Below, one piece after another: positions 9,285 through 62,247 of a stretch of 64,000 bases of DNA. The DNA comes from an uncultured Bacteroidales bacterium. GTDB lineage: Bacteria > Bacteroidota > Bacteroidia > Bacteroidales > P3. Numbering within the stretch: the stretch's first letter is position 1; every line of letters starts with the position of its first letter. Location of the stretch: NCBI GenBank assembly GCA_900317285.1, contig ONGA01000007.1:1-64000 (forward strand), in the 5' to 3' direction. The notes beneath the pieces were generated by a model. That model searched no databases. It saw only the letters and a list, made by a program, of their open reading frames with translations, and was not told the DNA's origin. The translations under genes and the position numbers were made by a program.

Positions 9285-9372
9285 AGCGACATAGGAGCGA
9301 TACAGGAGCATCCATAGACCTACCATAGAGTTACAATAGAGGTACCATAGACCTAGCATAGACCTACCGTCC
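9285..9372 (-). repeat. 88-bp intergenic repeat, copy A
   Basis: This block is the reverse complement of 17912-17999, with the same length and three mismatches by eye. Inside it are short degenerate units of the type CCATAGACCTA, with ATAGGAG at one end. It has no coding frame. It lies between the hydrolase terminator and gdhA. The minus strand is assigned because a leftward -7 element (9495-9502) would transcribe it in the same sense as copy B. Confidence 0.85.
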
Positions 9373-17911: not shown

Positions 17912-17999
17912 GGACGGTAGGTCTATGGTAGGTCTATGGTACCTCTATTGTAACTCTATGGTAGGTCTATGGATGCTCCTATATCGCTTCTATGTCGCT
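17912..17999 (+). repeat. 88-bp intergenic repeat, copy B
   Basis: Reverse complement of 9285-9372, equal in length with three mismatches by eye. It contains repeated GGTAGGTCTATGGTA-type units and ends in ATCGCTTCTATGTCGCT. No coding frame. It lies about 145 bp after a TATCTTTG element on the same strand. Confidence 0.85.
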
Positions 18000-24300: not shown

Positions 24301-27300
24301 GCTTCGAGAATGGTCTGCCCACCAGCGCCACGGTGGTCAATGTGGATACCACTATCTGGGGTCGTGTGCCGACGACGCAGCCCATCGTCAATGCTTTCGA
24401 CAACGATGCTAGTTCCCGCATGTATCAGGATGTGGGTTACGACGGACTGGGCTCCACCCATGGTCTGGAAGACGAGCAGACCTTCTTCGCCAACTACCTG
24501 CAGGCCATCGCCGCCCGTTTCGGGATGGGGTCGGAGGCCTATCAGCAGGCCGCCGCCGACCCGTCGGGCGACGACTTCCGCTATTTCCGCAGCTCCTATT
24601 ACGACGACAACAACACCAAAATCAACGACCGCTACAAGAGTTTTAACAACCCCGAAGGCAATTCGCCCGTCGACGAGGATAGTGACGAAGAGTACATGAC
24701 CTCCGCCTCGGCCTACCCCAACGTGGAGGATATCAACAGGGACAATACCCTCAGTGAGGCGGAGAACTACTACCAGTATGTCATCGAACTGGACCCCGCG
24801 CACATGGTGATCGGCGAGAACCATATCGTCGACATCCAGGAGGCGCACAACGTGCAACTCGCCAATGGTGAGACGACTAGCTGCCGCTGGTACCAGTTCC
24901 GCATCCCCATCCGAGAGCCGGACCAGAAGGTGGGCAACATCAACGGTTTCCAATCCATCCGCTTCATGCGTATGTTCCTCAACCAGTTCTCCGAACCGGT
25001 GATACTGCGTTTCGCCACCCTCGATCTTGTCTACTCGACTTGGCGCAAATATAGCGAAGACCTGCTGCAGCCTGGCGACTACACCTCGGGCTCCGGCGAG
25101 AACACCAGTTTCAACATTTCCACCGTCAATATCGAGGAGAACGGTAGCCGCCAGCCAGTGCCGTATGTGCTGCCTCCGGGAATCGAACGCGAGGAATGGT
25201 ACTCGTCGAGCAACAGCTACACGCAGCTTAATGAGCAGTCGATAGCTCTGGACGTCGACGGCCTCACCAGCGGCGATGCCCGTGCTATCTATCGCTCCAC
25301 GAGCTATGACCTGCGCCATTACGGTCACATGAAGATGTTTGTCCACGCCGAAAAGAAATACGCCACCGACGTGATGAACGACGACGACATGGTGCTCTTT
25401 GTGCGACTGGGTAGCGACTACACCAACAACTACTACGAGTATGAATTGCCTCTGAAGTTCACGCCTTGGAACACCCCCTCAGATGATCCCTATGCCATCT
25501 GGCCGACAGACAACAACGTGGATATTGAGCTGCAGAAGTTGGCAGACATCAAGACCAACCGAAACCGACGCATCCGGTCGGGCGAGAGCGGCTATTCCCC
25601 CACGCTGCTCTACAGCGAGATGGTGGATGGAAAGAAATACACCGTCTTGGGTTCTCCGAACCTTGGCAAGGTGAAGGTTATCATGGTGGGCGTGCGCAAT
25701 CCGAAGAAAGAAAGCCTCGGCGACGGCAATAACATGCTGCCGAAGTCGGCTATCGTATGGGTGAACGAACTGCGCCTGAGCGACTACACCAACAAGGGCG
25801 GTTGGGCAGCGATGGCAATGGCACGCACCAACCTCGCCGACCTCGGCAACCTGTCTCTCTACGGCTCCTACACCACCGCCAATTTCGGCAACCTCGAAGA
25901 CCCCCTCATCAAGGAGGAACTGGTGAACACCTTCACCTTCCAGACTACGCTTGACTTGGAACTTGGCAAATTCCTCCCCGAGACCTGGGGTCTCCGTATC
26001 CCCATGTACTTGGACTTTAACCGCGAGATTGGCAGTCCGGAGTATAACCCCTACAACCCCGACGTGCTGCTGAGCGAGGATATCGACACCTACCGCACCA
26101 AAGAGGAGCGCGATAGCGTGCGCCACATGACTCAGCGCCGCAAGAGTGCCACCAACCTCACTTTTGCCAATGTAAGGAAAGACCGCGTGGGCAAGTCGGC
26201 GCTGAAGCAGCATTTCTATGACATCGAGAATTTCTCGTTCTCCTACGCCTATAGCCGGGAACGCATGAGCGACGAGGAGACTGAACACTACAACAAAGAC
26301 CAGCACCGTGGCGGTTTCGCCTACAGTTATGCCCCCAAGGCGGAGCCTGTGACCCCCTTCAGCAAGGTGAAACTGTTCCAGGGGAAGGCTTGGAAGATTT
26401 TCAAGGAGTTCAACTTCTACTACAAGCCGAAGAATCTGAGCTTCTCCACCGAAATATATCGTGATTTCGAAGAGACCCTGCTGCGCAACAAGAGTGCCGC
26501 GCTGGTCATTCTAAAGCCCACCTATTTCAAGCAGTTTACGTGGCAGCGCACCTACGGGTTGCAGTACGACTTGATGCGCACCTTCCACATCCAGTATTCT
26601 GCCAATGCCAATGCGCGCATCGAAGAACCCATTGGGCGCATCCAGACGGCATCGGCGGCCGACTCCATCTGGCGTTCCATCGCCGCGGGCGGCACCATGC
26701 AGAATTTCCAGCAGCAGATTACTGTCAGCTACGAGCTGCCTGTCAACAAACTGCCTTATCTCGACTTCCTCCGCATGCCGTTGAGCTACCGCACCAACTA
26801 CAACTATCAGGGTACTACGCAGGCATTGCAGTCGATGGGAAGCACGTTGCAGAACTCCGCCAACTTCACGGCTTCCGCCAATGCCAATTTCCAGAATTTC
26901 TACAATAAGTTCAAACTCCTCAAGGACGCTAACGCCCAGAAAAATACCAAAAAGCCGCAGGCTCCCAAGAAGAAGTCAAAGCGGTTGGAGAAGATGAGCA
27001 TACAGGACTCGCTGGCGGTGGCCGACAGCATGCGTCGTGAGAAGCGTAAGGAAATGCTCAAAGATGTCGCCTACTTTGGTCTCCGCCTCCTCACGGGCTG
27101 GAAAGACCTCAGTATCCAGTCCAACACCACCTGGGGCTCACGGCTGCCTGGTTACATGGGTGAGCCTCATTTCTTGGGACTCGACTCCCGCAATGGTTGG
27201 ACTCCGGGATTGGGTTATGTGCTCGGCTATGACATGGATGTGGCGGAAGACCTTCTGCGGCGCGACCTCCTATCGAAAGACTCGCTGTTCAATACGCCAC

Positions 27301-28448
27301 ACGAGATGACGATGAACCGGTCGCTGACATTGCAGGCGAACCTGGAACCTATACGCGACCTCAAGATAGTGCTCAATGCGACGCAGAACTACACCTCGCG
27401 GGACGAGTATTACTACAAGTACCTGCCCGATCAGGGCGAGGTGGTGGGACCGCTGTCGAAGATGACCACGGGCTCGTATACCACCACCACCTGGAGCTTC
27501 TCGACAGCTTTCACTGATCCTAATGTCCTCTTCGACCAGTTCCTCGAAAACCGCTCCGTTGTGGCATCACGCCTGGCTGCCGCCAACCCGTCTTCCTACA
27601 GCAACATGATGGTGCTCGACTCGATGTCCGGACAGTACTTCCCGGCAGGCTATAGCCCCAACTCGCAGACGGTGCTCCTCACGTCGTTCCTTGCCACCTA
27701 CCTGGGTAATAATGCCGCCACACAATCGTTCTCTCCGTTCCTCAAATTCCCGCTGCCTAACTGGAATATCAACTACAACGGTCTGAATAAGGTGCAGTTC
27801 CTCAAGAAGTGGTTCACCAATATCACGCTGTCGCACCGCTATTCATCGACCTACAGCATCGGCAACTACTACACTGATGCCTCCCTTGCAGGCACTTCCA
27901 ACTATGATTACGGCGCCGAGACGTTGCTCAACAACTCGGGCGACTATATCCCGCCGGTGAGTATGGAGGGCGTGCAGATTACGGAACAGTTCAATCCTCT
28001 CATCAAGGTGTCGGTCAATATGGTCAACAGCTTCCTGTTCAACTTCTCGCTTCAGAAGAACCGCACACTGATGCTGTCGTTCTCCAACAACCAGTTGACG
28101 GAGACCACACGTAGCGGCTTCACCTTTGGCACGGGCTACCGCTTCAAGGATGTGGCATTCAAGGTGAAGTTCGCCGACAAGACCCACGAGCTCAAGAGCG
28201 ATATCGTGTTGCAACTCAATATCACCTACAACAACAATTTGACCAATATCCGCAAGATAAACCAGAATATCAGCCAGATATCGTCGGGAAGCAAAGTGTG
28301 GATGGTGGAACTCAGCGGTGAGTACGCCCTCACCACCTCCCTCACTGTTCGCGCATTCTTCCAGTCGAATATCAACACTCCCTATATCTCCAATTCCTAC
28401 CCCAACTCCACTACCAAGGGTGGTTTGACCATACGCTTCTCTTTCTAA
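21330..28448 (+). CDS. sprA: T9SS outer-membrane translocon SprA (Sov)
   Basis: 2372 residues, matching the size of SprA, the very large beta-barrel that forms the type IX secretion pore. A signal peptide is present from a GTG start (MPKGKYILALLFLLSIHAAVWGQ). No ATG start is available because the only nearby ATG, at 21308, runs into a stop after three codons. Family segments include LDFLNGKPLFSIDRSGSAELTFQI, AHFIPGMASTGSSEGSVSYVDDFEGAESSISL, and long barrel repeats ending in GGLTIRFSF with a terminal Phe. It exports the sorting-domain proteins of this genome, including the two in this window. It is preceded by ruvA and followed 17 bp later by a TPR gene. Confidence 0.95.
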   Translation: MPKGKYILALLFLLSIHAAVWGQSDSVGYTPMGSGYQPSAMTTTVEYNPETKDYVKVTKVGDVVLSREYMSFEEYQNWKMDQLMQQYWTEKSEGSVLDNAGGGLLNKIPGFNQISQKLDFLNGKPLFSIDRSGSAELTFQIVNNFRDDPQRDASERSVTTFDFDEKIQANINAKIGDLINIDLSHNTQATFDFENKKVLRYEGKEDDILQLLEAADVSFPLNTNLIKGSQQLWGFHTKLKFGKLSIDAVFSEKETSTENMQVKGGASSHEFEIRADEYEDNRHYFIAQYFYDNYNKAMSTLPVVNSNVRIIRIEVWRTNVGAAVTQNRNILALTDLGEGVPSNYRVHGSGPTLPHNNANDLLTYVNPSSVRSINSVTSYMQGLGMTAGEDYEKVESARLLNSNEYTFNRQLGFITLNQPLSNDQVLAVAFQYQVVGDTNVYQVGELTTDGVNDPNTLVVKLLKSTTINTHSPLWKLMMKNVYFLKSSQLGRDNFRLNVLYESPEGGVGVGFFTEGPKQGIPLIELFGMDRMDASQSYFYSDGVFDWFDSAAFKGGLIQASTGRVFFPYVEPFGKDLRAILGDDEFANLYCFDSLYTMTQALAQQYAERNRFYLEGYYTSAVSGEISLGYSVTQGSVSVTAGGIPLIENVDYTVDYTMGTVRIINESILSSGTPISVSSENNSFSMTTKRMLGLHLNYEIQKDFNIGGTVMNLHEKPLTMKNNLGDEPTSNTIWGLDLNYSHEVPFITKLIDMLPGIDTKEPSKLSLTAEFAHFIPGMASTGSSEGSVSYVDDFEGAESSISLTAPSLWFLASTPQDYRQSMPMFPETSPGSGLAYGYNRAKLAWYRISNDFYFNSNRPSNISTDDLSKPYARRIYEQEVFPNKDRVAGQPTYIYELNLAYYPDEKGPYNYDVAPTAFSAGIDEHGRLNNPASRWGGIMRKLDYTDFETQNIETIEFWLMDPFIENPTHSGGKLYINLGDISEDILRDGRKSFENGLPTSATVVNVDTTIWGRVPTTQPIVNAFDNDASSRMYQDVGYDGLGSTHGLEDEQTFFANYLQAIAARFGMGSEAYQQAAADPSGDDFRYFRSSYYDDNNTKINDRYKSFNNPEGNSPVDEDSDEEYMTSASAYPNVEDINRDNTLSEAENYYQYVIELDPAHMVIGENHIVDIQEAHNVQLANGETTSCRWYQFRIPIREPDQKVGNINGFQSIRFMRMFLNQFSEPVILRFATLDLVYSTWRKYSEDLLQPGDYTSGSGENTSFNISTVNIEENGSRQPVPYVLPPGIEREEWYSSSNSYTQLNEQSIALDVDGLTSGDARAIYRSTSYDLRHYGHMKMFVHAEKKYATDVMNDDDMVLFVRLGSDYTNNYYEYELPLKFTPWNTPSDDPYAIWPTDNNVDIELQKLADIKTNRNRRIRSGESGYSPTLLYSEMVDGKKYTVLGSPNLGKVKVIMVGVRNPKKESLGDGNNMLPKSAIVWVNELRLSDYTNKGGWAAMAMARTNLADLGNLSLYGSYTTANFGNLEDPLIKEELVNTFTFQTTLDLELGKFLPETWGLRIPMYLDFNREIGSPEYNPYNPDVLLSEDIDTYRTKEERDSVRHMTQRRKSATNLTFANVRKDRVGKSALKQHFYDIENFSFSYAYSRERMSDEETEHYNKDQHRGGFAYSYAPKAEPVTPFSKVKLFQGKAWKIFKEFNFYYKPKNLSFSTEIYRDFEETLLRNKSAALVILKPTYFKQFTWQRTYGLQYDLMRTFHIQYSANANARIEEPIGRIQTASAADSIWRSIAAGGTMQNFQQQITVSYELPVNKLPYLDFLRMPLSYRTNYNYQGTTQALQSMGSTLQNSANFTASANANFQNFYNKFKLLKDANAQKNTKKPQAPKKKSKRLEKMSIQDSLAVADSMRREKRKEMLKDVAYFGLRLLTGWKDLSIQSNTTWGSRLPGYMGEPHFLGLDSRNGWTPGLGYVLGYDMDVAEDLLRRDLLSKDSLFNTPHEMTMNRSLTLQANLEPIRDLKIVLNATQNYTSRDEYYYKYLPDQGEVVGPLSKMTTGSYTTTTWSFSTAFTDPNVLFDQFLENRSVVASRLAAANPSSYSNMMVLDSMSGQYFPAGYSPNSQTVLLTSFLATYLGNNAATQSFSPFLKFPLPNWNINYNGLNKVQFLKKWFTNITLSHRYSSTYSIGNYYTDASLAGTSNYDYGAETLLNNSGDYIPPVSMEGVQITEQFNPLIKVSVNMVNSFLFNFSLQKNRTLMLSFSNNQLTETTRSGFTFGTGYRFKDVAFKVKFADKTHELKSDIVLQLNITYNNNLTNIRKINQNISQISSGSKVWMVELSGEYALTTSLTVRAFFQSNINTPYISNSYPNSTTKGGLTIRFSF

Positions 28449-28465
28449 TCGTTAAAGTAACAGGA

Positions 28466-29878
28466 ATGAAAAAAGATAGATTTAAAGACTACGACGACGA
28501 GGTTCGCGACTTGGTGCTCGACTTTGAACAGACGGTGCTCAATGGTGAGAGTCAGTTCTTCGACGCCGACGAACTCGAGATTATCATTGACTACTATTTC
28601 GAAGTGAACGATGAGAAACCTCTGGAGAAGGCCGTGGAGTACGCCGAATACCTCTACCCCGAAAATACACAGGTGCGACTGCGCCGTGCCCACCTCATGA
28701 TATCGCACCAGCAGTTCTCGCAAGCTCTCGAGGTGCTGATGCGCCTGCGTGAGCGCGAACCGGAGAATACCGACATCGCCTACTCCCTGGGTGTTGCCTT
28801 GGGTGCTGTGGGCGAATCAAAGAAAGCTATCGAATACTTTGAGGAAGCTGCCTCCGACGGGTGGATGCTCGGCCGCATCTACTCCAACATGGCGGAGGAA
28901 TACTACAAGCTCAAGGAGTATGACGAGGCTTTGAAATGCTACTGCTCGGCACTATTTTCTGACTCCTTCGACGACTACACCATTTACAACTACTATGATG
29001 TGTGCAACGAGTTGGGCCGTTTTGAAGAGGCGGCCGACACGCTCAAGAAGTTTGTCGACCAGAACCCCTACAGCAAGGAGGGCTGGTACTGCCTCGGATG
29101 TGCCCGTCGCGACCTGACACTCTATGAACTGGCAGCCGACGCTTTCGAATATGCCATCGCTATCGACAAGACTTTCGTCGACGCCTATGTCATGTTGTCG
29201 CAGGTGCAGGACCTGCAGGGTAACCTCGGCGAGGCGGTGACGACCATGTTGCGGGCGCTCGAATTCACCGACCATAAGGACCGTATCTACCGCACGGTGG
29301 GATCCCTCTACGCCCGTGAGATGAACCTCGACACAGCCATCGTCTATTTCAAGAAGGCTCTTGAGGAGAACCCCGCCGATGCCGACGCTTTCGCCGCCAT
29401 GGCGGTGTGCTACCTGCAGATGGACGACCTCACCAACGCCCTCTCGTTTGCCAAGATAGCCCTCAACATAGAGTCGGCGCTTCACGAGGAATATCGCGAG
29501 GGTGGCAATCCCGACGTCTACTGTTCGGCGGCCATGGTCTACGACGCCTCGGGCAACTACGAGAAAGCATCAGAGTGTTTCGACAAGATGATTGCCACCG
29601 AATACAGCTCTGAACAGCAGTATCAGCTTTACGTGCAGTTCCTCTACAATCACAAGGTCTACGACATACTCATCCCCTTCGCTAACGAGTCGCTCGACGT
29701 CTACCCCCACGACCGCTTCTACAGCACCTACCTCGCGGCATCTTATTTCTACACCAACCGCTACAACAAGGCCCGCCAGGTGTTGCCCGACGTGATACCC
29801 GCCATGCTTGCCGAGCTTTGCCCCGAAATCATGACGCATCCGTTGCTGGGACCGCTGGTGCCAGAGGAAAGCATGTGA
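28466..29878 (+). CDS. Cytosolic tetratricopeptide repeat protein
   Basis: 470 residues of tandem TPR helices with no signal peptide. Recognisable repeats include NTDIAYSLGVALGAVGESKKAIEYFEEAA, YSNMAEEYYKLKEYDEALKCYCSAL, GWYCLGCARRDLTLYELAADAFEYAI, and DAFAAMAVCYLQMDDLTNALSFAKIAL. The N-terminus is highly acidic (MKKDRFKDYDDEVRDLVLDFEQT). It probably works as a scaffold for protein-protein contact; the partner is unknown. It lies 17 bp after sprA and may be cotranscribed with it. Confidence 0.85.
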   Translation: MKKDRFKDYDDEVRDLVLDFEQTVLNGESQFFDADELEIIIDYYFEVNDEKPLEKAVEYAEYLYPENTQVRLRRAHLMISHQQFSQALEVLMRLREREPENTDIAYSLGVALGAVGESKKAIEYFEEAASDGWMLGRIYSNMAEEYYKLKEYDEALKCYCSALFSDSFDDYTIYNYYDVCNELGRFEEAADTLKKFVDQNPYSKEGWYCLGCARRDLTLYELAADAFEYAIAIDKTFVDAYVMLSQVQDLQGNLGEAVTTMLRALEFTDHKDRIYRTVGSLYAREMNLDTAIVYFKKALEENPADADAFAAMAVCYLQMDDLTNALSFAKIALNIESALHEEYREGGNPDVYCSAAMVYDASGNYEKASECFDKMIATEYSSEQQYQLYVQFLYNHKVYDILIPFANESLDVYPHDRFYSTYLAASYFYTNRYNKARQVLPDVIPAMLAELCPEIMTHPLLGPLVPEESM

Positions 29879-35840: not shown

Positions 35841-37532
35841 TCAATACTCGAAGGTGCTGCCGCCAAGGAATTCGCGCATGATGCTGTTGTAGGGGATGAA
35901 CTTGTCGTCGATGGGCAGCAGCAGCTCGGAGAATCCCAGGAGCTGGCGTGCGATGGAGTATTCCTCGCAGTCTTCGGGTACCTGCTTGAGGAGGGGTTCG
36001 GCGTAGCGTTTCAGCACGCCGAGTTCGTAGAGCAGGGCGCTGTTGAACATGACGTTGGCGTTCTCCTGGTAGGGGAAGATGTGTCTGCGCTCGCCGCGCA
36101 CCACTTCGGGCCAGCGGCGGATGGTCTCGTAGGCGTTCCAGCCGCGGAAGTTGTTGTCGCGCACGATGCGGCGCACGAGGCGGTTGTCGGTGCCGTGGAT
36201 GATGTTCTGGTCGTCGATGGAGAGCTGGGTGAGGGCGGAGACATAGACCTTGAATTTCAGGCTTTCGTCGATTTCCGCCGTGAGTTTGGGGTTGAGGGCG
36301 TGGATGCCTTCGACGACGAGGATGCTGCGGGGGCCGAGCTTGAGGGTCTTGCCGCTGTAGAAGGGCGAGCCCTTGATGAAGTCGAAGGTGGGTATCTGCA
36401 CCTCCTCGCCGCTGAAGAGGGCGTTGAGGTGTTCGTTGAGCAGCGGGATGTCGAGGGCGTCGACGCTCTCGAAGTCGTATTCGCCGTTGGGGAGCTTGGG
36501 GGTGCGTTCGCGCGACATGAAGTAGTCGTCGAGCGAGAGCTGGTTGACGTCGTAGCCGAGGACGGAGAGCTGGACGCTGAGTCGGCGGCACGAGGTGGTC
36601 TTGCCCGAGCTCGAGGGACCGGCGAGGAGCACCATGCGGGCGCCGCTCTGGCGCACCTGTTCGGCGATTTCGGCGTATTTCTTTTCGTGCAGCGCTTCGG
36701 CGAGGAGGATGAGGTTCTGTCCGCCGCCGTTATAGACGATGCGGTTGTAGTCACCCACCGTGGAGGTGTGGAGGAGTTCGGTCCACTGGTAGTGTTCGCG
36801 GAAGATGGCGAAGAGCTTGGGGGTGTCGGTGTAGAGCGACAGCTTGTCGGGGTGTTCGGGGTCGGCGCACTGCAGCATGTAGCCGTCGCCGTACTGGCGG
36901 AAGTCCCAAGTGGTGAGGCATCCCGTGGAGGGTGCCAGTTTGCCGTTGATTTTGTGGACGGTGTCGCCGAGGAAGTTCATCTCGATGTAGAGCTGCTTGA
37001 GGTGCTCGAGGAGGTAGAGGGTCCTCTCCATGTGGCGCGGGCGGACGAGCTCGACGGCGTCTGTGCGGAGCATGGTCTTGGCGACGAAGGGGATGTCCTG
37101 TTCCTGGAGTGCTATCATGCGTTCGCGCACGGTGCGGCAGACCTCGTCGTTGGGGGGCAGCTGGAAGTCGTCGACGGCGCTCTCGATGCGGCAGTAGAAG
37201 CCGTTCTGGAGAGAGTGGTCGATGTGGAGCACTGCCTTGGGGTAGCTGTCGTGCACGGCGGTGTAGAGCATCATGGTGAGGGCGTTGCGGTACATGCGGA
37301 AGCCCTGGCGGCTGGTGATGTCGAGCAGCTGGATGGTCTTGGGGTTGTAGATGCGGTACTGCAGGGGCTCGACTTTGTTGTTGACGAGGGCGCCGAGGAT
37401 GGGCCGCGGGGCCTTGCCGTCGGCGACGGTCTTGGCTTTCACGTAGTCGGCAGCCAGCTGTGCCACGGGGGTGCCGGGCTCTATCTGCATTCGCTCGCCG
37501 GTGTTGGCTAGGACGATTTCGACTTGGGTCAT
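35841..37532 (-). CDS. Nucleoside (uridine-like) kinase with TGS and ThrRS-type domains
   Basis: 563 residues in three parts. Residues ~1-70 are a TGS domain (VEIVLANTGERMQIEPGTPV). Residues ~80-240 resemble the second additional domain of threonyl-tRNA synthetase (ALTMMLYTAVHDSYPKAVLHID...). Residues ~295-563 are a P-loop kinase of the uridine kinase/PRK type: Walker A GPSSSGKTT (305-313), LSLDDYFMSR, and VVEGIHALN. The architecture is a known Bacteroidetes/Firmicutes family annotated as nucleoside kinase; the role of the tRNA-synthetase-like part is not established. It is followed by a convergent terminator and preceded on the same strand by the four-helix-bundle insertion. Confidence 0.9.
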   Translation of the reverse strand: MTQVEIVLANTGERMQIEPGTPVAQLAADYVKAKTVADGKAPRPILGALVNNKVEPLQYRIYNPKTIQLLDITSRQGFRMYRNALTMMLYTAVHDSYPKAVLHIDHSLQNGFYCRIESAVDDFQLPPNDEVCRTVRERMIALQEQDIPFVAKTMLRTDAVELVRPRHMERTLYLLEHLKQLYIEMNFLGDTVHKINGKLAPSTGCLTTWDFRQYGDGYMLQCADPEHPDKLSLYTDTPKLFAIFREHYQWTELLHTSTVGDYNRIVYNGGGQNLILLAEALHEKKYAEIAEQVRQSGARMVLLAGPSSSGKTTSCRRLSVQLSVLGYDVNQLSLDDYFMSRERTPKLPNGEYDFESVDALDIPLLNEHLNALFSGEEVQIPTFDFIKGSPFYSGKTLKLGPRSILVVEGIHALNPKLTAEIDESLKFKVYVSALTQLSIDDQNIIHGTDNRLVRRIVRDNNFRGWNAYETIRRWPEVVRGERRHIFPYQENANVMFNSALLYELGVLKRYAEPLLKQVPEDCEEYSIARQLLGFSELLLPIDDKFIPYNSIMREFLGGSTFEY

Positions 37533-37551: not shown

Positions 37552-37598
37552 GTAGTTAAATGTAGTTAAAGTAGTTAAAGGTAGTTAAAGGACAAATG
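37552..37598 (+). repeat. GTAGTTAAA array, left of the four-helix-bundle gene
   Basis: Four near-tandem GTAGTTAAA units (37552, 37562, 37571, 37581). The innermost continues as GTAGTTAAAGGACAAATG (37581-37598). The first 15 bases of that unit are the exact reverse complement of 37984-37998. The full 18 bases recur in reverse complement at 62182-62199. Confidence 0.9.
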
Positions 37599-37599
37599 T

Positions 37600-37974
37600 T
37601 CAGTCCTCCCATTTTTTTCTGTTTATGATGGCGCTGCTATAGGAGTTGAGGAATTTGCTGGTTTCCTCGATTTCCTGCATTAGCATGTCACTTTCATTTT
37701 GGTCAATATAGGATAAATCGTATCCAAGAATTATATAACAGCGACACTCCTCCAGACTCCCCTGTGCATAATTGTAGAAACGCAGTTTGTCATCTTTCCC
37801 CATTCGCTTGTAACCTTCCGCTATATTGCCAGCAATTGATACTGCAGCCCGGCGGAACTGAGAGGTAAGTCCGAATTTCTCATCATCAGGGAAACGTTTT
37901 GTTACTTTGTAAACATGGAGAATGAACTGTCGTGCTTTCTGCCATGCAATAACGTTCTCAAAACAATTGGTCAT
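37600..37974 (-). CDS. Four-helix-bundle protein, 23S rRNA intervening-sequence (S23) family
   Basis: 124 residues matching the IVP/S23 family: NVIAWQKARQFILHVYKVTKRFP, then EKFGLTSQFRRAAVSIAGNIAEGYKR, and AQGSLEECRCYIILGYDL. The family was first seen in spirochaete 23S rRNA insertions and is also the relative of the Avd accessory protein of diversity-generating retroelements; its function as a lone gene is unknown. The gene is A/T-rich compared with its neighbours. It lies wholly between inverted GTAGTTAAA arrays, inserted between two minus-strand genes. No rRNA or reverse transcriptase is nearby. Confidence 0.88.
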   Translation of the reverse strand: MTNCFENVIAWQKARQFILHVYKVTKRFPDDEKFGLTSQFRRAAVSIAGNIAEGYKRMGKDDKLRFYNYAQGSLEECRCYIILGYDLSYIDQNESDMLMQEIEETSKFLNSYSSAIINRKKWED

Positions 37975-37983
37975 GTGAAGGTA

Positions 37984-38025
37984 TTGTCCTTTAACTACTT
38001 AACTACTTTTAACTACTTTAACTAC
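37984..38025 (-). repeat. TTTAACTAC array, right of the four-helix-bundle gene
   Basis: Four TTTAACTAC-type units in the orientation opposite to the left array, with TTGTCCTTTAACTAC (37984-37998) innermost. The array ends 8 bp before the stop codon of the M24 peptidase gene. Confidence 0.9.
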
Positions 38026-38033
38026 ATGATATT

Positions 38034-39422
38034 TCAGCTATTCATGGTTGCTTCGATTTCCGCGACGGTCTTGGGGATGGGTTTGCCGAGGACGCGGCAG
38101 CCGTTGTCGGTGACGAGGATGTCGTCCTCGATGCGGATGCCGCCGAAGTCTTTCCATTTCTCGAGTTCGTCGAAGTTGATGAAGTCCTTGCCGGTGCCTT
38201 CGGCGTGCCATTTGTCGATGAGCGCGGGGATGAAGTAGCAACCGGGCTCGTCGGTGATGACGAAGCCGGGCTGGAGGCGGCGGCCGCAGCGGAGGCTGCC
38301 GAGGCCGAACTGCTCGGAGGGGCGGGTCTCGTCGTCGTAGCCGACGTTGATCTGGCCGTAGTTCTCCATGTCGTGCACGTCGAGACCCATCATGTGGCCG
38401 AGGCCGTGGGGCATGAGGAGGCTGTGGGCACCGGCAGCGACGATGTCGTCGGTGTTGCCGCGGAGGATGCCGAGACCTTTGTAGCCTTCGGCGAGGACGC
38501 GGCTGGCGGCCTGGTGGACTTCCTGGTAGGTGATGCCGGGGCGGGTGACGCGTATGGCTTCGAGGTTGGCGGCGAGGACGATTTCGTAGATGGCTTTCTG
38601 GCGTTGGTCGAAGCGGCCGCCCACGGGGACGGTGCGGGTGATGTCGGAGCAGTAGTTCATGGGGGTTTCGCAACCGGCGTCCATGACGAGCATGCGTCCT
38701 TTCTCGAGGCGGTTGTTGTGGCCGTGGTTGTGGAGGGTCTCGCCGTGGACGGTCATGATGACGGGGAAGGAGACGGGGCCGTTGCCTTTCCAGGCTTCGC
38801 CTTCCATGAATCCGGCGAGTTCGTATTCGTAGCGGCCGGGCATGGCGAGGCGCATGGCGCCGACGTGCATGTTGTAGGCTGTGGCGATGGCGCGTTCGAT
38901 TTCGGCAATCTCCTCGGGGCTCTTGATGGAGCGCTGCTTGACGCAGGCGAGGATGAGGTCGAGCGAGGCGTGGCGGTTGACGGCGGCGTAGGGGACGCCG
39001 AGCCACTCGCTGAGGTCGGCGCGGATGTCGGCGCGGTAGGGCGGCAGGTAGTGGGGCAGGGCGGAGGTGGGACGCTTGCCGTCGAGGTATTTGCGGAGGT
39101 CGGCAAGGGAGCCGCTGTTGTCGACGCCGACGCTGGCGGCGAGTTCCTTGACGGTGGGCAGGGGACCGGTCCAGATGATGTCGTCGATGTCGTAGTCGTT
39201 GGCGAAGAGGTAGTCCTTGCCGCTGTCGCAGTCGATGACGCCCACGAGGTCTTCGCGCTGGAGGCCGAAGAAGTAGAGGAAGGTGCTGTCCTGGCGGAAC
39301 CAGTAGGTGTTGTCCTTGTAGTTGCAGGGTGCCTCGTGGTTGCCGGGGAGGATGACGATGCCGCTCTTGAGGTCCTTGCGGAGCTGCTCGCGGCGGGCGA
39401 TATAGGTCTCTTTGTTGAACAT
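38034..39422 (-). CDS. pepP: Xaa-Pro aminopeptidase (M24B, aminopeptidase P-like)
   Basis: 462 residues. The N-terminal creatinase-like domain (MFNKETYIARREQLRKDLKSG, FYFFGL-type TFLYFFGLQRED) is followed by a pita-bread catalytic domain. Metal ligands are visible: Asp in LVMDAGCE, Asp in YCSDITRTVPVGG, His in MPHGLGHMMGLDVHD, Glu in VITDEPGCYF and Glu in GIRIEDDILV. It removes N-terminal residues preceding proline; no signal peptide, so cytosolic. It may once have been close to the nucleoside kinase gene, now separated by the repeat-bounded insert. Confidence 0.92.
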   Translation of the reverse strand: MFNKETYIARREQLRKDLKSGIVILPGNHEAPCNYKDNTYWFRQDSTFLYFFGLQREDLVGVIDCDSGKDYLFANDYDIDDIIWTGPLPTVKELAASVGVDNSGSLADLRKYLDGKRPTSALPHYLPPYRADIRADLSEWLGVPYAAVNRHASLDLILACVKQRSIKSPEEIAEIERAIATAYNMHVGAMRLAMPGRYEYELAGFMEGEAWKGNGPVSFPVIMTVHGETLHNHGHNNRLEKGRMLVMDAGCETPMNYCSDITRTVPVGGRFDQRQKAIYEIVLAANLEAIRVTRPGITYQEVHQAASRVLAEGYKGLGILRGNTDDIVAAGAHSLLMPHGLGHMMGLDVHDMENYGQINVGYDDETRPSEQFGLGSLRCGRRLQPGFVITDEPGCYFIPALIDKWHAEGTGKDFINFDELEKWKDFGGIRIEDDILVTDNGCRVLGKPIPKTVAEIEATMNS

Positions 39423-39600: not shown

Positions 39601-39685
39601 CTCCTATGCTTGTACTACCATTCTCCTATGGTTCTCCTTGGGTTCTCCTATGATGCGTATATGATGCGTATATGATGCTCCTATG
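39601..39685. repeat. CTCCTATG repeat block related to the 88-bp element
   Basis: Contains several CTCCTATG and TTCTCCTATGG units and two tandem ATGCGTATATG units. The word GATGCTCCTAT is shared with the end of repeat copy B (17973-17983 region). No coding frame. Confidence 0.65.
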
Positions 39686-39748
39686 TTTAGGGTTTAAGGT
39701 TTACGGTTTAGGGTTTACGGTTTAGGGTTTACGGTTTACGGTTTACGG
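39686..39748 (+). repeat. Heptamer array TTTAGGG/TTTACGG, nine units
   Basis: Nine tandem 7-bp units: three TTTAGGG, one TTTAAGG and five TTTACGG, covering exactly 63 bp. It begins at the end of the CTCCTATG block. Confidence 0.92.
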
Positions 39749-39755
39749 GGGTCTC

Positions 39756-39811
39756 TTCGAGACTTCAAGACTTCGAGACATCGAGACATCGAGACATTGA
39801 GACTTCGAGAA
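39756..39811 (+). repeat. Octamer array TTCGAGAC, seven units
   Basis: Seven tandem 8-bp units of TTCGAGAC, ATCGAGAC, ATTGAGAC and TTCAAGAC, the last ending GAGAA. It starts 7 bp after the heptamer array. Confidence 0.9.
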
Positions 39812-62016: not shown

Positions 62017-62247
62017 GGAAGTTGGAGAAGTTAATAGTAGTTAAAGTAGATAAATTAGTGGTAGTTAAAGTAGTTAAAGGTAGTTGGCTCGCTTCGCTCG
62101 CATGGGTAGTTAAAGGCCAATAGCACCAGCAGCGAACAATGACTACACCAATTGGCAACAAACACGGACCGCGTCAGCCATCATTTGTCCTTTAACTACG
62201 TTAACTACCTTTAACTACGTTAACTACCCATAAAAAAGAAAAAAATA
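62017..62247. other. metK-pdxJ intergenic region
   Basis: 231 bp without a gene. It holds a second GTAGTTAAA/TTTAACTAC inverted-array locus and, between units of the left array, a GCTCGCTTCGCTCGC palindrome. Confidence 0.75.
62037..62227. repeat. GTAGTTAAA inverted arrays without a gene (empty locus)
   Basis: Left units GTAGTTAAA at 62037, 62061, 62070 and 62106, the last separated by GGCTCGCTTCGCTCGC. Right units of TTTAACTAC/GTTAACTAC type run from 62191 to 62227. The right inner edge, 62182-62199, is the exact reverse complement of 37581-37598. Only about 67 bp lie between the arrays (62115-62181), with no open frame, in contrast to the gene-bearing locus at 37.6 kb. Confidence 0.88.

Follow-up and report, generated by a model that had tools for sequence, protein, structure and literature searches.

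STRRs are arrays of intergenic heptamers in cyanobacteria, and to our knowledge it has not been explained how such arrays between genes spread; likewise, we know of no agreed function for the widespread protein family S23/IVP. One described setting of an S23 gene is the 23S rRNA IVS of Coxiella, which has a stem of 28 bp and an S23 ORF preceded by tandem heptamers; rRNA IVSs are thought there to be selfish, and a role of the ORF in mobility was suggested (PMC4990558). IVP ORFs also occur in rRNA inserts of CPR bacteria (PMC11270868). In the RAYT/REPIN system, a gene is flanked by its own type of inverted repeat, and miniature hairpins are dispersed between genes (PMC3116915). TAACTGA arrays, finally, are short tandem intergenic units of Cyanobacteria and Bacteroidetes that lie near start codons, have a patchy distribution and change by whole units; in the excerpts available of that paper, no transfer mechanism was evident and the main text is without S23 (PMC4679880). 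A link of S23 to arrays outside rRNA was not recognised in the part of the open-access literature that was covered.

The element at positions 37552 to 38025 of the window (the whole stretch of 64,000 nucleotides analysed here, from genome G000; genomes and loci carry our own numbers, G and L) resembles the 23S rRNA IVS in that an S23 ORF is enclosed by stem-forming inverted repeats, but it lies between protein genes, both of its arms are tandem arrays, and gene-free miniatures exist (Table 1). As in RAYT/REPIN, hairpin copies that share the ends but have no gene are dispersed; however, the gene between the arms is S23 and not a Y1 (HUH) transposase, and the ends are tandem arrays instead of single palindromes. 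It differs from an insertion sequence in that the gene between the arms has no transposase domain, and from the TAACTGA arrays, as the available part of their description goes, in that the arrays occur in inverted pairs, many of them around S23. We consider it reasonably probable (about 0.6) that the locus is a mobile hairpin element and that its S23 protein acts in trans on arrays of its own type, in the manner of RAYT and REPIN and without a recognised nuclease.

Table 1. Features of the S23 element, its flanks and related sites in the window
Feature	Position	Strand	Remarks
Downstream arm of S23 gene	37552..37590	+	four GTAGTTAAA units; inner edge GGACAAATG at 37590-37598
S23/IVP four-helix-bundle gene, 124 aa	37600..37974	-	PF05635; solved homologues 2gsc, 2rld
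Upstream arm of S23 gene	37984..38025	-	four inverted units; minus-strand inner edge GGACAATAC
Flanking gene, PRK/uridine-kinase family domain	35841..37532	-	start-codon side of insertion
Flanking gene 'pepP', M24 metallopeptidase with aminopeptidase P N-domain	38034..39422	-	stop-codon side of insertion
Empty junction	28449..28465	+	G002 has an S23 element there with the same unit as the window's
Sister element without S23 gene	62037..62228		arms 62037-62113 and 62189-62228; inner edge CATTTGTCCTTTAACTAC, as at the S23 element

The left-arm units of the GTAGTTAAA type start at 37552, 37562, 37571 and 37581, and the inverted TAACTAC units at 37992, 38000, 38010 and 38019. Over 29 nt (37560-37588 and 37999-38027) the arms are 97% complementary, and the inner inverted repeat of 15 bp is perfect (37581-37595 and 37984-37998). 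The sequence-only reading had claimed both the four units on either side and this inner repeat, and its coordinates for them were borne out, as was the gap of 27 nt that would separate two minus-strand ORFs once 37552-38025 is removed. It had also called the gene A/T-rich, which agrees with 42% G+C in the S23 gene against 56% in the window, and had seen no known IS layout; none was recognised between the arms by us either, where the gene is S23 and has no transposase domain. The protein matches PF05635 with 127.2 bits (cut-off, 33.8; E = 3.7e-37); in a profile search, its only other match was a weak one to bAvd, under the curated cut-off, with no transposase or recognised catalytic domain. Rfam gave no match at gathering score between 36000 and 39500. 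The 7-mers GTAGTTA/TAACTAC occur 16 times in the window, compared to a first-order Markov mean of 3.0 (maximum of 7 in 30 simulations), and this excess rules out a chance origin of the arrays. All 16 fall in the S23 locus or in a second inverted array pair at 62037-62228, which the earlier reading had not covered. This sister element is placed between metK-like and pdxJ-like genes, and the inner edge CATTTGTCC adjoins its array, matching the S23 element.

Other repeats were seen in the same genome. A dispersed intergenic repeat of G000, about 300 nt long (L007-L010, L012, L015, L026, L027), opens with (GTAGTTAAA)n GGGCAAATG, so that one lone arm is joined to it, and has arrays of 11 nt (GGTAGGTCTAT..., CTCCTATGTC) at its other end; similar 11-nt arrays stand in the window at 9312-9368, 17916-17972 and 39621-39678. 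About 1.7 kb from the S23 element are nine copies of a GTTTACG heptamer (39685-39748) and seven copies of CTTCGAGA (39755-39810); GTTTAC-type units border S23 genes in G012 and G002. In several species, array arms are interrupted by short palindromes of the GCTCGCTTCGCTCGC kind (window 62086-62101; L146, L150, L260, L261).

The layout is common. The relatives' set comprised 113 S23 matches in 61 genomes, of which 50, mostly the best ones, were scored together with three further loci; the threshold of 13.2 is the 99th percentile of 97 control ORFs from the same loci. Mutually inverted upstream and downstream flanks reached this score in 38 of the 53 S23 loci, compared to 1 of the 97 control ORFs, and arms at threshold were absent in the remaining 15. 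When a flank was compared with those of all 53 loci, its own partner ranked first in 24 loci and within the top three in 39. With the same threshold, which for these loci derives from another genome set, inverted arms were found at 45 of 78 scored loci in named genomes of several phyla, among the matches listed (80 loci, two with flanks too short to score; 33 without arms at threshold), and at 9 of 16 viral loci (18 fetched), several of which are near-duplicates. Measured against their own shuffles (maximum of 40, plus 2), 56 of the 94 named and viral loci pass, again among the matches listed. The passing taxa include Segatella, Prevotella and Tamlana of the Bacteroidota and, furthermore, Acidobacteriota, Chloroflexota, Planctomycetota, Verrucomicrobiota, a deltaproteobacterium and Patescibacteria.

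On cyanobacterial plasmids, 8 of 14 S23 loci (taken from 30 matches) score at least 13.2 with 200-nt flanks, and four stay under the arm score despite visible upstream heptamers of the TCAGGAG/TCAGAAG type. A search of 14 plasmids for the array pattern led to an inverted pair enclosing S23 in NZ_CP040276, a plasmid that the earlier S23 search had already matched at two S23 places; the S23 inside the pair is 99% identical to that of a Nostoc edaphicum plasmid. Three of the 14 plasmid loci (L135, L136, L133) have S23 within CRISPR operons: in two cyanobacteria its neighbours are cas6 and cas4 of a type I-D operon, and in a third they are Cas10/Cmr2 and Cmr3.

The sequence-only reading had proposed to search other S23 genes for flanking arrays of the TAACTAC type and would have taken their absence in the same species as part of an argument against the unit. 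Inverted arms are indeed common, but the unit differs by S23 clade: the other S23 genes of G000 have no TAACTAC within 1.5 kb, but of the three scored, two (G000:C11) are flanked by inverted arrays built from a different unit and the third (C17) by none. A single unit common to every S23 gene is therefore not what we find, since the unit varies by clade, and TAACTAC arrays are not specific to S23 either, many of them being without an S23 gene. S23-like genes without visible arrays are L004 (G000), L393 (G077), L395 (G065) and L403 (G023; PF05635), possibly a settled host version.

When 62 S23 proteins are placed in a tree, the array unit tracks the protein clade and not the host. Three of the S23 genes of G002 have AGTTA, AGTGA and AGATA units, and each groups with like-unit genes of other genomes where these are present. 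Because gene and array are linked, the match of clade and unit alone proves no recognition; therefore, a genome-wide prediction of arrays was set for the unit types before the search. AGTGA matches numbered 87, 158, 34 and 27 in four carriers of AGTGA-type S23, compared to at most 17 in the other 33 of 37 genomes (p = 1e-4); over all 59 genomes, including a fifth carrier, G068, with merely 10 matches, p was 3e-5, where both p values ignore the kinship of the genomes and the counts are overlapping pattern matches and not elements. The built-in control of this search is uninformative, AGTGA reversed being the identical string. A clear exception is G079, with 68 AGTGA matches and no AGTGA-type S23 found. 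The AGATA counts fit the prediction less well than the AGTGA counts: G002 (44) and G009 (13) are as predicted and G022, also predicted, has just 3, and unpredicted matches occur in G010 (38), G069 (17), G004 (9), G008 (8) and G079 (8), the last of which holds an AGATA-flanked S23 with an internal stop. The high AGATA control is taken to be due to unrelated arrays. AGTTAA matches reach 167 in G077 and 108 in G065, and a close matching S23 was found in neither. So a matching S23 predicts array amplification, and since G079, G077 and G065 are rich in arrays without a matching S23, copies can outlive their S23 or be moved by something else.

The same three genomes would fit a different assignment of roles, in which S23 is a passenger: the hairpins would owe their movement to a different enzyme, such as an IS200-like Y1 transposase, or their spread to errors of replication, and S23 would have been captured between arms and have its selected role elsewhere. 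An IS200-like Y1 transposase gene (PF01797) does lie at the pepP/kinase junction of G069 (L152), and the array-less S23-like genes point the same way. We nevertheless regard a passenger role as unlikely, in view of the arms that flank most of the scored S23 genes across phyla (among the matches listed for named genomes) but hardly any control ORF, and in view of the unit that follows the S23 clade, with AGTGA arrays concentrated in the carriers of AGTGA-type S23.

Gene-free copies were inspected at 20 array places, most of them chosen for a visible inverted pair and not a sample; 15 were clearly two-armed, one had a degenerate second arm and four were one-armed. In the miniature layout, arms of about four units surround a short core, GGACAATA...CATTTGTCC or the inverse, and many such elements occupy the gap from a stop codon to the start of the following gene. 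Judged from these layouts, S23-less arms of the same kind are dispersed miniature elements. Cores of 28 to 29 nt are alike in G007, G008, G079 and G077 despite arm units of AGTGA, GAAGTTAAAG and GRAGTTAAGG, and one element of G008 (L240/L259) has one AGATA and one AGTGA arm; from this comparison, the core seems to be retained when the arms are altered. The order XAGTTAAG XAGACAG XAGTTAAG XAGTTAAG, with its odd second unit, is common to G035, solo arrays of G000, G021 and G004 (L053, L051, L055; L011, L014, L029). X is GT in the first three of these, in G021 with small changes to the array, and GG in all four units of G004, a change that affects every unit together.

When the S23 element is folded as RNA, its two arms form a stem that encloses the gene (z = -5.7 against shuffles). 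Four species have tandem copies of the arm 3' of S23 together with the inner edge of that arm (L050, L051, L052, L150), and S23 is co-directional with both annotated neighbours in 11 of the 14 plasmid loci, for which the gene tables are incomplete. The hairpin fold, the amplified 3' arm, the shared direction and the weak, below-cut-off similarity of S23 to bAvd would suit a route in which a trans-acting reverse transcriptase makes DNA from the hairpin RNA and S23 serves as an RNA-binding partner, like Avd in diversity-generating retroelements. The likeness to Avd ends at the weak profile similarity, however: unlike those retroelements, G000 (96% complete) has no match to RVT_1 at E <= 0.001, and we hold this route to be improbable.

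S23 itself is maintained as a protein. In six of eight comparisons of S23 pairs, pN/pS was 0.07 to 0.26 with saturated synonymous sites, and in the remaining two dN/dS was 0.02 to 0.03; these ratios indicate that S23 is under purifying selection. Fifteen diverse S23 proteins have 13 invariant columns, among them Q39, R42, S46, N50, E53, G54, S73 and E76, and the pattern of conservation fits one common function across the varied units.

That the block moves is best seen at filled and empty sites. A survey of the pepP/kinase junction returned 30 loci for the genus, with some kinase match in 54 of 59 genomes. S23 with arrays stands in 8 of the 30 (S23 is cut short in G007), arms without S23 in one (G001) and short array remnants in two (G009, G080). 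In G022, G008, G023 and G018, the flanking genes overlap by ATGA; the two genes are separated by a short gap in G073 and G030 and by other inserts in G069, G002, G012 and G072, and at the remaining nine loci no peptidase end was seen beside the kinase or the contig ends. These overlaps are the empty orthologous sites that the sequence-only reading had called for, and they support its view of an insertion into a former gene pair. It had also counted as adverse a gene shared at this site by relatives with diverged arrays; such sharing exists in the eight loci, but the empty sites still support mobility.

Reciprocal evidence comes from G002, which is without S23 at its own pepP/kinase junction. 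Its S23 protein, 87% identical to that of the window, is encoded about 8 kb from its kinase gene, and the flanks align with window positions 27082-28457 and 28467-29430; hence, the window has no element at this junction, where a stop codon (28448) is followed by a start codon (28466). Similarly, the S23 of G022 lies about 19 kb away from the ATGA-overlapping junction of that genome, and two Nostoc plasmids, 89 to 99.7% identical over the three long pieces that align, form a reciprocal pair of filled and empty sites at two neighbouring junctions. The metK/pdxJ site has the S23-less element in G000, G002 and G079 and is empty in six relatives (G069, G021, G070, G075, G009, G023), where the genes overlap or are at most about five bases apart. 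Among the few filled and empty pairs compared, no consistent target duplication was seen.

The candidate mobile unit proposed from the sequence thus gains support from the reciprocal sites in the Nostoc plasmids and in G002 and the window. As the aligned sites demonstrate, the cassette occurs or is missing as one block where the stop of a gene adjoins the start of another, and the S23 gene and both inverted arrays very probably form one mobile block. Plain vertical inheritance as the whole story at this site is out, given these filled and empty pairs. An old intergenic feature, passed on vertically with repeated loss and with array length set by slippage, was already disfavoured and is the least probable account: the sharing of S23 by the eight loci and the metK/pdxJ arm, which differs between G000 and G002 by whole units, would agree with it, but close S23 relatives occupy other junctions that are empty in relatives, and loss would have to restore ATGA overlaps exactly.

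How might a mobile hairpin element with a trans-acting S23 spread? The arms would pair in single-stranded DNA or RNA to give a long hairpin, and an S23 oligomer would bind the unit type of its own clade and aid the copying or placing of hairpins into intergenic gaps. Cutting and joining could be left to replication or repair enzymes of the host. Miniature copies would be non-autonomous passengers, as REPINs are of RAYTs. After a shift in S23 specificity, copies with the new unit would replace the old ones, and the arms would change together.

On a wider scale, and tentatively, at a little under even odds, S23/IVP proteins could be the mobility proteins of widespread elements with tandem-array ends and no conventional nuclease. 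The heptamer arrays of cyanobacteria and Bacteroidetes would then be non-autonomous copies and the 23S rRNA IVSs a subset that landed in rRNA; S23 and unit would co-evolve as protein and binding site, with arms rewritten at shifts in specificity. The 23S rRNA IVS and the cyanobacterial heptamer repeats may thus be forms of the same thing, and a unit of S23 plus arrays may account for a puzzling gene family together with a puzzling class of repeats. Joining S23 and arrays in one mobile unit makes both directly testable. If true, RAYT/REPIN would be joined by a second bacterial system in which a gene spreads along with hairpin repeats of its own, in this case with no recognised nuclease.
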